DNA of 64,000 bases from Chitinophaga sp. (GTDB lineage Bacteria; Bacteroidota; Bacteroidia; Chitinophagales; Chitinophagaceae). The position numbers and the translations under genes are program-made. Below the pieces are notes generated by a model. The model saw nothing but the letters and a program-made list of their open reading frames with translations. It searched no databases and was not told the DNA's origin. The stretch is from the NCBI RefSeq assembly GCF_017745275.1, contig NZ_JAGHZS010000011.1:1-64000 (forward strand). Reading direction: 5' to 3'. Shown one piece after another: positions 1 through 52,857 of the stretch (positions are counted from its first letter, which is position 1; the number at the start of each line of letters is the position of its first letter).

Positions 1-55
1 GCTCTGGTCATCCGCTTTAATAGCTTTTTGCTTTCTGCTTTCAGCTTTCTGCTCC
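1..55. repeat. Right arm of a heptad-armed inverted repeat, truncated by the window start
   Basis: GCTCTGGTCATCCGCTTTAATAGCTTTTTGCTTTCTGCTTTCAGCTTTCTGCT matches the right arms at 2497-2552 and 49604-49657. Confidence 0.75.
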
Positions 56-2426: not shown

Positions 2427-2552
2427 AGCAGAAAGCTGAAAGCATAAAGCAAAAAGCTATTGTAGCGAATGATCAGAGCGAAGGATTAAATATCTATTCG
2501 CTCTGATCATTCGCTACAATAGCTTTTTGCTTTATGCTTTCAGCTTTCTGCT
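2427..2552. repeat. Perfect 56-bp inverted repeat with heptad arms, stop-to-stop
   Basis: 2427-2482 is the exact reverse complement of 2497-2552, with a 14-nt spacer; AGCAGAA AGCTGAA AGCATAA AGCAAAA AGCTATT ... Confidence 0.95.
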
Positions 2553-3325
2553 TACTTCTTAATGCGATAAGCATAACCGATAGATGCAGTAGCAGCACCG
2601 GTATTGTTTTTACCGTTAGCGGATCCTTTCTGGATGTTGAGGAAGCCATAGTTTCCACCGCCTTCAACAAATACCTGGTTACGTCCGAAGATATATGCCA
2701 GTCCAACGTTTCCACTTACACCAAAGTTGAAAGTATTCAGTTGATCTTTGATATCAACGGTTTGGTCGAAATTGCTGGAAGCACCCAACGGCGCTTTACC
2801 ATTTTCATCCATGTAAAGTGGTTGATTACCGCCGCTCATCACTTGTTTGCCGCTTAACAAAAATCCGAAGAACGGACCTGCATCAACGTACAGGCGTAAT
2901 GGAGATGTAGGCCCCAGGTTCCATCCAAATTTAGCGAGGATAGGCACCATCAGGTAGTTCAGTTTCGCCTGGCTTTTAAAATCAGCATATAGATATTTCG
3001 TTCCCGGAGGAAGTGATGTCGCATATGCCGCCGGAACAGGAAACGCTTGCATTCCGTCTTTTTTACCTCCCTGGGAAGAATAGCTGATCATCGCTTCCAC
3101 AGAAAAGAGTTTGCTAAAATGGTATTCTCCGAAGATACCGAAATCGGGTCCCTGGCGTGATTTGTAACCTTTATTGAGGGGATTTTCTTCACTGCCGCCG
3201 CCAGTGAGATTTGGAATACTGATGCCTCCTCTGGCACCGAGATCAATTTGCTGCGCACTGGCTTTTGTTGCACAAAACAGGACAATAGCAGGCAACAGCC
3301 ATTTCATAGAACGTTGGATTTTCAT
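2552..3325 (-). CDS. PorT-like outer membrane beta-barrel protein
   Basis: Signal peptide MKIQRSMKWLLPAIVLF, beta-barrel pattern. Confidence 0.75.
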   Translation of the reverse strand: MKIQRSMKWLLPAIVLFCATKASAQQIDLGARGGISIPNLTGGGSEENPLNKGYKSRQGPDFGIFGEYHFSKLFSVEAMISYSSQGGKKDGMQAFPVPAAYATSLPPGTKYLYADFKSQAKLNYLMVPILAKFGWNLGPTSPLRLYVDAGPFFGFLLSGKQVMSGGNQPLYMDENGKAPLGASSNFDQTVDIKDQLNTFNFGVSGNVGLAYIFGRNQVFVEGGGNYGFLNIQKGSANGKNNTGAATASIGYAYRIKK

Positions 3326-27965: not shown

Positions 27966-29441
27966 ATGACTATGCAACGGATGAAACATATATTTTTAGC
28001 AAGTGCCTTCCTGTTGGCAGGTTGTAAGAGTGTGCTGGATGTACAGCCCAAAGGTAACTACACCACCGGTAACTACTGGCGTAACCAGAGTGATGCCTTA
28101 GACGGCGTTACAGGTATGTATAATGTGCTGCTGGAAGAAGATTATACCGGCTTTAACGAGTTTGTATTCGATAACTGCTCCGATGACCAGGTACGCGGTG
28201 GTGACCACGGCTATGACGGTGCTATTGAAGATTTCTCCTACGATGCTACCACCTATAGTGTAAGAGTTGGCTGGAGATGGAAATATGAAACCATTAACCG
28301 CGCTAACAACGTATTGATCTACGTTCCCAAAATCACGGACATAGACCCGGCTATCAAAGCCCGTTGCCTCGGTGAAGCGCATTTCTTCCGAGCCTTTGCC
28401 TACTGGCGTTTGCTGCTCATCTATGGAGATGCCCCCATGGTAACCGAAGATGATGTACTGAAATCCAACTACAAAAAACCTAAAGTAAGCGCCGACGAAC
28501 TGCGCAAACAAATTGAAACAGACCTGCTGGCTGCGGCTGATCAACTGCCTGAATCTTACGGCGATGCCGACAAAGGCCGTGTAAGCAAAGGTACTGCCTG
28601 GGGGCTGCTGTGCAAGCTGTACATGAACTGGGAAAAGCTGGACAAAGCGATTGAAGTGGGTAGCAAAGTAGTTAGCAATGCAAACTATGCGTTAGCACCT
28701 AACTATGCCGACAATTTCAGCGTAGCTACCGGTAATAATTCAGAAATGCTGATGGCAGTTCAAACCGTAGATGGTAACGGCTACTCCGATTTCATTACCT
28801 ACCATGCTCCACGTAACTGGAATGGATGGAGCTTCTTCTATCCTACCAAAGGACTGGTAGATGAATTTGAAGCAGGTGACCCCCGCAAAAATATCTGCAT
28901 CATGCAACCCGGCGATAAAGTAAACATCGGTACCGGTATTGCTACTTACAATGCAGATGCTTCCTGGAGCGGTTATCACTATAAAAAATTCTGTTCCTGG
29001 AAACCTTCCGGTGGCCTGGATTATTCCCTGAAAACGCCGTTAATGCGTTCTTCAGATATCTACCTGCTGGTGGCGGAAGCCAAGATCCGCCTGAATGGTG
29101 CGGGTGCCGGTGATGTTGAAATCAATAAAGTACGCAGACGCGCCTCTGCTGCATTAAAGCCAGTTATTGGCGGTGGCATGAAAGAACTGATGCATGAGCG
29201 CCGCGTAGAATTATGTGGCGAAAACGAGCGTCACCAGGATTTAATCCGTTGGGATAAAGCGAAACTGGTAGATATTGTATCGCTATACAAACAACCTAAG
29301 CTGGCATATGATAATACTCAAATTATCAATGGAGGTGCTCCAAGAACGTTTGCACGTCCTAAGAACTACTACTTCCCAATGCCACAGCAGGAAATAGACA
29401 GAAGCCAGGGCTTGCTGATACAGAATCCGAATTTCAAGTAA
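27966..29441 (+). CDS. RagB/SusD family nutrient uptake outer membrane lipoprotein
   Basis: Lipobox LLAGCKS, LDVQPKGNYTTGNYW, AHFFRAFAYWRLLLIYGDAP. Confidence 0.95.
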   Translation: MTMQRMKHIFLASAFLLAGCKSVLDVQPKGNYTTGNYWRNQSDALDGVTGMYNVLLEEDYTGFNEFVFDNCSDDQVRGGDHGYDGAIEDFSYDATTYSVRVGWRWKYETINRANNVLIYVPKITDIDPAIKARCLGEAHFFRAFAYWRLLLIYGDAPMVTEDDVLKSNYKKPKVSADELRKQIETDLLAAADQLPESYGDADKGRVSKGTAWGLLCKLYMNWEKLDKAIEVGSKVVSNANYALAPNYADNFSVATGNNSEMLMAVQTVDGNGYSDFITYHAPRNWNGWSFFYPTKGLVDEFEAGDPRKNICIMQPGDKVNIGTGIATYNADASWSGYHYKKFCSWKPSGGLDYSLKTPLMRSSDIYLLVAEAKIRLNGAGAGDVEINKVRRRASAALKPVIGGGMKELMHERRVELCGENERHQDLIRWDKAKLVDIVSLYKQPKLAYDNTQIINGGAPRTFARPKNYYFPMPQQEIDRSQGLLIQNPNFK

Positions 29442-29559
29442 GCATAAAGCAGAAAGCTTAAAGCAAAAAGCTATTGAGGCGATTGACCATTGCGAATATT
29501 ATATACGCTTTGATCAATCGCCTCAATAGCTTTTTGCTTTAAGCTTTCTGCTTTATGCT
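29441..29559. repeat. Heptad-armed inverted repeat, stop-to-stop
   Basis: AGCATAA AGCAGAA AGCTTAA AGCAAAA AGCTATTGAGGCGATTGA exactly matches the reverse complement of the right arm; overlaps both flanking stop codons. Confidence 0.95.
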
Positions 29560-49188: not shown

Positions 49189-49545
49189 ATGGAGTTAACC
49201 ACCCTTTACCGCCCCGTAGGACCAGCAGAGCTGGAATTAATTAAACAATCCGGCTGGAAACGATTTCCACCCAGGCTCCCCGATCAGCCCATCTTCTATC
49301 CTGTAATGAATGAGGCATATGCCATACAAATCTCTGTGGAATGGAATGTGCCGGCGTATGGTGCCGGCTATGTGACCAAATTTGACGTAGATAGTAATTT
49401 TCTGAAACGATATAAAGTAGAAAATGTGGGTGGGGTGATACATAATGAATTATGGGTACCGGCGGAAGAACTGGCGGAATTCAATGATCATATTGTAGGG
49501 CTGATTGAAGTAACGCAGTCGTATTCTGCAAAGCAGAAAGCATAA
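49189..49545 (+). CDS. Conserved hypothetical protein
   Basis: ATG at 49189; LYRPVGPAELELIKQSGWKRFPPRLPDQPIFYP; stop codon lies inside the heptad repeat. Confidence 0.75.
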   Translation: MELTTLYRPVGPAELELIKQSGWKRFPPRLPDQPIFYPVMNEAYAIQISVEWNVPAYGAGYVTKFDVDSNFLKRYKVENVGGVIHNELWVPAEELAEFNDHIVGLIEVTQSYSAKQKA

Positions 49546-49664
49546 AGCAAAAAGCAAAAAGCTATTAAAGCGAATGACCAGAGCGATTATTAATTTACTC
49601 ATACGCTCTGGTCATTCGCTTTAATAGCTTTTTGCTTTTTGCTTTATGCTTTCTGCTTTCTGCT
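49532..49664. repeat. Heptad-armed inverted repeat between convergent genes
   Basis: Left arm 49532-49585 is the reverse complement of 49604-49657 (54 bp), plus an extra right-hand heptad. Confidence 0.95.
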
Positions 49665-49684
49665 TTACGGAATACGACTGCGTT

Positions 49685-51051: not shown

Positions 51052-51157
51052 AGCAGAAAGCAGAAAGCATAAAGCAAAAAGCCATTGAAGCGAATGATTA
51101 ACGCATATATAATATCCACTCTAATGGCTTTCTGCCTTATGCTTTATGCTTTCTGCT
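51052..51157. repeat. Imperfect heptad-armed inverted repeat
   Basis: AGCAGAA AGCAGAA AGCATAA AGCAAAA AGCCATT ... AATGGCT TTCTGCC TTATGCT TTATGCT TTCTGCT; ends in the TAG of the 51156 gene. Confidence 0.88.
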
Positions 51158-52751: not shown

Positions 52752-52792
52752 TTTATCTTGATTAAACTAATTTTTATTTTTTGATAGAAAGA

Positions 52793-52840
52793 ATAAAATA
52801 GACGAGCCGCGCTCAAATGAGCGCGGCTCGTCTATTTTAT
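52793..52840. terminator. 23-bp perfect hairpin, bidirectional terminator
   Basis: ATAAAATAGACGAGCCGCGCTCA-aa-TGAGCGCGGCTCGTCTATTTTAT. Confidence 0.9.
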
Positions 52841-52857
52841 TTATAACACGACAATTT

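Follow-up and report, generated by a model that had tools for sequence, protein, structure and literature searches.

Long palindromic repeats at gene ends in Chitinophaga: putative bidirectional terminators with matched arms

The gap between two convergent genes near the start of the window (the whole stretch of 64,000 nt analysed here) is occupied by a long, perfect inverted repeat, one member of a family of dispersed palindromic repeats that we call family A. On balance, we consider it probable that this element acts as the bidirectional terminator of both genes, that its arms have been homogenized by copying from arm to arm at the level of DNA, and that copies of the family enter existing terminator hairpins. 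The family itself is real and functional-looking, and its anatomy is unusual; it does not amount to a new category.

The palindrome at the SDR/OMP junction

The junction comprises the following features:

1710-2426, + strand: left convergent gene, short-chain dehydrogenase (SDR; PF00106), with its stop codon TAG at 2424-2426
2427-2482, + strand: left arm of the family-A palindrome, made up of four heptads (AGCAGAA, AGCTGAA, AGCATAA and AGCAAAA), the fixed unit AGCTATT (2455-2461) and the core GTAGCGAATGATCAGAGCGAA (2462-2482)
2483-2496, no strand: 14-nt spacer (hairpin loop)
2497-2552, - strand: right arm, the exact reverse complement of the left arm, its outer part T-rich on the + strand
2552-3325, - strand: right convergent gene, outer-membrane beta-barrel protein (OMP; PF13568; PorT-like in the preliminary description), with its stop codon read from 2552-2554 (TTA on the + strand)

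The two arms (2427-2482 and 2497-2552; 56 nt each) are 100% complementary, with zero mismatches across a 14-nt spacer, and the preliminary description was equally correct that they exactly fill the space between the stop codons: the left arm starts one base after the TAG of the SDR gene, and the last base of the right arm is the first base of the TTA. Its reading of the arm as eight 7-nt units applies only to the outer part, where five units (2427-2461) are strict AGC heptads; further in, the remaining 21 nt form a conserved core that is not heptadic. At 2427-2552, this is the longest gapless inverted repeat of the window, tied with the copy at 49530-49659. The computed RNA folds of the two strands have energies of -105.1 and -102.7 kcal/mol, against about -32 kcal/mol for shuffled sequences (z about -21), which excludes a chance origin. 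A scan with a terminator-like consensus, which accepts only loops of 3-8 nt, did not list 2427-2552, where the loop has 14. The element has the features of an intrinsic bidirectional terminator, namely a stem-loop directly after the stops and a T-rich 3' side on both strands. Transcription arriving from either side would allow the GC-richer core to fold and would then be followed by the T-rich heptad arm, such that the one element would serve as the 3'-end element of both convergent genes.

Abundance, anatomy and genomic position of family A

According to the preliminary description, absence of the element from the rest of the genome would have counted against it; this argument fails because the genome-wide search for heptad arrays that it proposed was positive, with 327 + 320 matches to a general heptad pattern in the 7.94-Mb genome (G000) and 0 + 6 for the reversed control. 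A strict pattern for the core gave 57 + 57 matches (reversed control, 0), and, of the 384 first-look candidates from a blast-type search, 40 were scored, yielding 80 strand-wise matches. In an unbiased survey of 864 kb, which covered the window and 800 kb of contig C11, there are 37 family-A palindromes, or about 340 per genome by extrapolation. AGC heptads are present in many Bacteroidia, often as plain tandem repeats, and hence the heptad count alone is not diagnostic. The strict core is carried by five of 79 Chitinophaga genomes: G000, C. eiseniae Ak56, C. polysaccharea 1209, C. hostae 2R12 and Chitinophaga sp. Ak27.

From the outside inwards, a family-A arm presents three to five heptads of the form AGCNNAA, the fixed unit AGCTATT and a GC-richer core, and the spacer is mostly 14-45 nt; the arms measure 34-58 bp in most copies and the elements about 100-140 bp. 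Within the heptads, AGC and the closing AA hardly ever change and letters 4 and 5 are variable, which suggests constraint on each heptad unit as well as on pairing. The outer heptads differ among copies in both number and letters, and the conserved portion is internal. In many copies in G018, G019 and G090, there is a fixed asymmetry, with GATC at the end of one arm and GACC at that of the other, which may be a trace of how the element was originally oriented; this asymmetry is mostly missing in G000. Further palindromes of the window are:

19-53, - strand: lone heptad arm of family A where the contig begins, the contig breaking inside the element
626-739, no strand: degenerate family-B palindrome with TTAGC-type heptads and a AAATGCAGCG core
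29441-29559, no strand: second family-A copy, between convergent genes, with 46-bp perfect arms
49512-49684, no strand: the 49530 palindrome with its extension into the unique sequence on either side, the left gene's coding end AACGCAGTCGTATTC being inverted on the right
49530-49659, no strand: third family-A copy, with 56-bp perfect arms, the left gene's stop codon being supplied by the heptads
51052-51157, no strand: fourth family-A copy, which has imperfect arms and follows the 3' end of one gene of a tandem pair

Additionally, the inverted repeat at 52792-52841 (AATAAAATAGACGAGCCGCGCTCA), which has perfect 24-bp arms and a loop of 2 nt, looks like an ordinary bidirectional terminator.

Draft contigs C2, C3, C18 and C21 start inside or next to family-A elements, as does the window (1-53); long palindromes may have broken the assembly. 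The same contig ends could be cited in favour of an assembly artefact, whereby read-through of a hairpin makes a false inverted copy, and the preliminary description had named such an artefact as a possible refutation. We regard this as barely credible: the family is carried by five assemblies, in four of which, from other species, related elements lie at orthologous sites with differing, species-specific sequences, and some of the arms are imperfect.

The copies show a marked preference for the 3' ends of genes. Of the 133 copies classified in the five genomes, 59 are in convergent gaps, compared with 394 of 2114 adjacent gene pairs (OR 3.9, p=1.8e-12), where gene calls follow a simple longest-ORF rule, the loci of the four relatives were selected for carrying the core and the background pairs were drawn from those same stretches. 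In the unbiased G000 survey alone, the corresponding values are 21 of 36 intergenic copies and 90 of 570 pairs. Convergent copies are within 25 bp of both stops in 54 of 59 cases; between tandem genes, all 65 copies in the five genomes start no more than 38 bp past the upstream stop, and for 55 of these 65 the upstream stop is nearer than the next gene.

Three further palindrome families were distinguished. Family B consists of AGCTNTT-type (TTAGC-type) heptads around a AAATGCAGCG core, with 12 copies in the C11 survey; other Chitinophaga genomes are very rich in such heptad arrays (152 + 151 matches in G020, 138 + 178 in G024). Family C comprises TTGTCTnnnnCAGGATT palindromes, with 37-124 matches per strand in G002, G004, G027, G034 and G102, and they were also noted at loci L123, L125 and L132; a universal 7-nt period was rejected, since its units are of 9 nt. 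Members of family C are often nested in other palindromes. Family D palindromes are built from AATTACG heptads and occur at C11:172398, 350630 and 358504, and at L092 in G027.

Neither Rfam nor the open-access papers searched contain an earlier description of family A, and nothing on point was found in the open-access literature on Chitinophaga palindromes or bidirectional-terminator repeats. A known structured RNA family was ruled out, as all Rfam matches fell below the gathering score, being confined to long-hairpin miRNA models and other weak matches. Phage or plasmid cargo was likewise ruled out, similar DNA being absent from both collections searched.

Orthologous slots and the matching of the arms

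At orthologous junctions in sister species, the place of a family-A copy is taken by ordinary short terminators or by unrelated palindromes of families B, C and D. The SDR/OMP slot holds ordinary 14-20-bp hairpins in G002, G004, C. eiseniae and C. polysaccharea, a family-A variant with other heptads in C. hostae and a family-D palindrome in G027. The 29441 slot is filled by a textbook bidirectional terminator in C. eiseniae and C. polysaccharea, and by family-C palindromes in G002, C. hostae and G027, the last of which (L131) has 145-bp arms. At the 51052 slot, there is a family-C palindrome in C. hostae and a short gap free of any element in four other relatives. At three sites (elements 47, 50 and 72) with flanks that are 91-96% identical, Chitinophaga sp. 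Ak27 has family-A copies where C. polysaccharea has ordinary terminators, the direction of the change not being polarised. These comparisons indicate that palindromes unrelated to one another replace each other in a single functional slot, and it is chiefly on this exchange that the proposed terminator role rests: judged by their position and by the other occupants of their slots, the family-A copies are most likely two-way transcription stop signals.

A separate question is how the arms remain identical. Going outward from the core, 104/109, 67/88, 49/74 and 28/53 heptads are identical between the arms of a copy, where 46, 13.5, 11.4 and 15 would be expected, and the arm pairs of family C are identical at nine variable positions in 17 of 19 cases in G004 and 11 of 17 in G027 (0.6 and 0.8 expected). 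The variable letters are equal within a copy, different between copies and co-changing between orthologs. In orthologs with flanks that are at least 90% identical, both arms have changed alike at 21 core positions, both have changed but unlike at 3 and one arm has changed at 42, although some pairs share a member and the events are not independent. At two orthologous sites, the spacer is inverted; in one of these, it matches at 25 of 26 letters only once inverted, and recombination between the arms could produce such inversions. In three copies, the symmetry extends into unique flanks by 12-18 nt, where about 0.14 would be expected at 12 nt or more (the remaining long matches are heptad runs). 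In the window, at 49512-49684, the conserved coding end of the left gene, AACGCAGTCGTATTC, recurs inverted beyond the right arm; the relatives do not have it there.

Selection for RNA pairing, in a terminator or an mRNA-stabilizing hairpin, would lead to compensatory mutation with no copying of DNA, and both the position of the elements after stops and the double changes between orthologs would fit with this. It accounts poorly for multi-letter changes in both arms, for the spacer inversions and for the inverted copy of a unique flank; moreover, the residual arm mismatches do not show the G.U preference in the sense RNA that it would predict (15 versus 13, albeit small numbers), and we consider it unlikely. 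Taken together, the concerted changes, spacer inversions, copied flank and lack of G.U bias favour DNA-level copying between the arms, as read from the sequence comparisons. One arm would be copied onto the other by replication template switching at the hairpin, the switching step being presumed, and each locus would consequently carry its own heptad 'word' in duplicate. Of the explanations offered for such mismatch-free arms in the preliminary description, gene conversion is, therefore, supported in the form of arm-to-arm copying by the concerted ortholog changes, the two spacer inversions and the copied flank. Recent formation need not be invoked: several family-A copies predate the split of close species, and their arms have stayed matched while diverging between species. 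Template switching at quasipalindromes is reported to make arms identical and to invert spacers in Escherichia coli and yeast (PMC7202029, PMC8604942), and the likeness lies in this homogenization of arms and inversion of spacers by a polymerase switching between them; the process has been described at single short sites, whereas here it would span a family of long, dispersed elements.

Spread of the copies and comparison with known systems

Two loci illustrate how copies may be gained. At C11:677206, an ordinary terminator stem, AAAAACCGGCATCGTAGG...CCTACGATGCCGGTTTTTATTT, encloses a family-A element, and the C. hostae slot holds a related plain hairpin; at C11:553753, a family-C element sits in the spacer of a family-A element to give 82-bp perfect arms. 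The nested loci, together with the exchanged slots, imply that both tip insertion and replacement occur, and new copies would, according to such a scheme, replace existing terminator hairpins or land in hairpin tips.

The agent of this movement could conceivably be a DDE transposase for which, as for IS1272, stem-loops are what is replaced or targeted, so that the elements would be MITEs and their position after stops would reflect the location of hairpin targets rather than function. Dispersed copies, complete replacement of ordinary hairpins between close relatives, tip insertion and nesting are all in keeping with this, and there is a precedent in IS1272, which replaces stem-loops (PMC5678879): in both cases, a palindrome gives way to an element that has inverted repeats at its ends, which IS1272 achieves with no duplication of the target. 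The substitution seen between C. polysaccharea (ordinary hairpin) and Chitinophaga sp. Ak27 (family A) resembles the stem-loop replacement of IS1182/IS1272-type elements, although its direction is not polarised, and comparison of orthologous slots by eye revealed no clear target-site duplication, the slots being mostly filled by another hairpin. However, IS1272 is a full transposon, whereas family-A elements contain no transposase. They also have no fixed terminal repeat, their outer ends varying in heptad number and sequence, and transposition by itself leaves unexplained both the matching of the arms at variable letters and the spacer inversion. An IS1182-type transposase was rejected, since PF05598 (DUF772) has no match in G000 or in three other carriers (G018, G034 and G090), with a weak, broken and truncated match in G019. 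We view the MITE explanation as doubtful, if the least improbable of the alternatives.

Mobilization as REP/BIME elements by a RAYT (Y1) transposase is highly improbable. REPs are palindromes of 20-40 bp with a GTAG/CGTC foot, associated with RAYT and located mostly in convergent or tandem gaps (PMC3733652), and family A resembles them in being palindromic, dispersed in high copy number, intergenic and downstream of genes, mostly in gaps of the same two kinds. It differs in its size (about 100-140 bp, with arms far exceeding such elements), its periodic arms and the lack of any G.U excess, and, in place of the unpaired GTAG/CGTC foot, it has a variable heptad. Moreover, PF01797 (RAYT/IS200) has no match in G000, whereas the control search in E. 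coli was positive, and RAYT/IS200 mobilization was rejected on this result.

More speculatively, and with a rather low likelihood in our estimation, terminators may spread without any transposase, if replication forks stalled at one hairpin were to switch template to another, so that terminators would copy themselves into the tips of other terminators or take their place. If true, this would explain the nested palindromes, variable ends, arm identity at each locus, spacer inversion and exchange between terminator families. More generally, the findings on family A suggest that, in parts of Chitinophaga, the terminators of convergent genes are DNA of a kind that is rapidly exchanged and possibly selfish, which would have consequences for operon boundaries, draft assembly and the annotation of 3' ends. 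With its several hundred copies in related species that are in culture, the family also provides natural replicates for the problem of how perfect inverted repeats stay perfect, and, at this scale, the predictions of template switching, RNA-pairing selection and transposition differ.

Two other repeats invite comparison. The BrickBuilt MITE of Porphyromonas gingivalis (PMC4596501) is likewise an intergenic element of the Bacteroidota composed of tandem short units, but these are 23-nt direct repeats, present in 19 copies, with promoter activity and at 49-591 nt from genes, and it forms no stop-to-stop palindrome. The TAACTGA heptamer repeats (PMC4679880) share the 7-nt intergenic unit, and some are found in Bacteroidetes; they are direct and mostly precede start codons, whereas the heptads of family A are inverted, follow stops and have variable letters that are matched between the arms.
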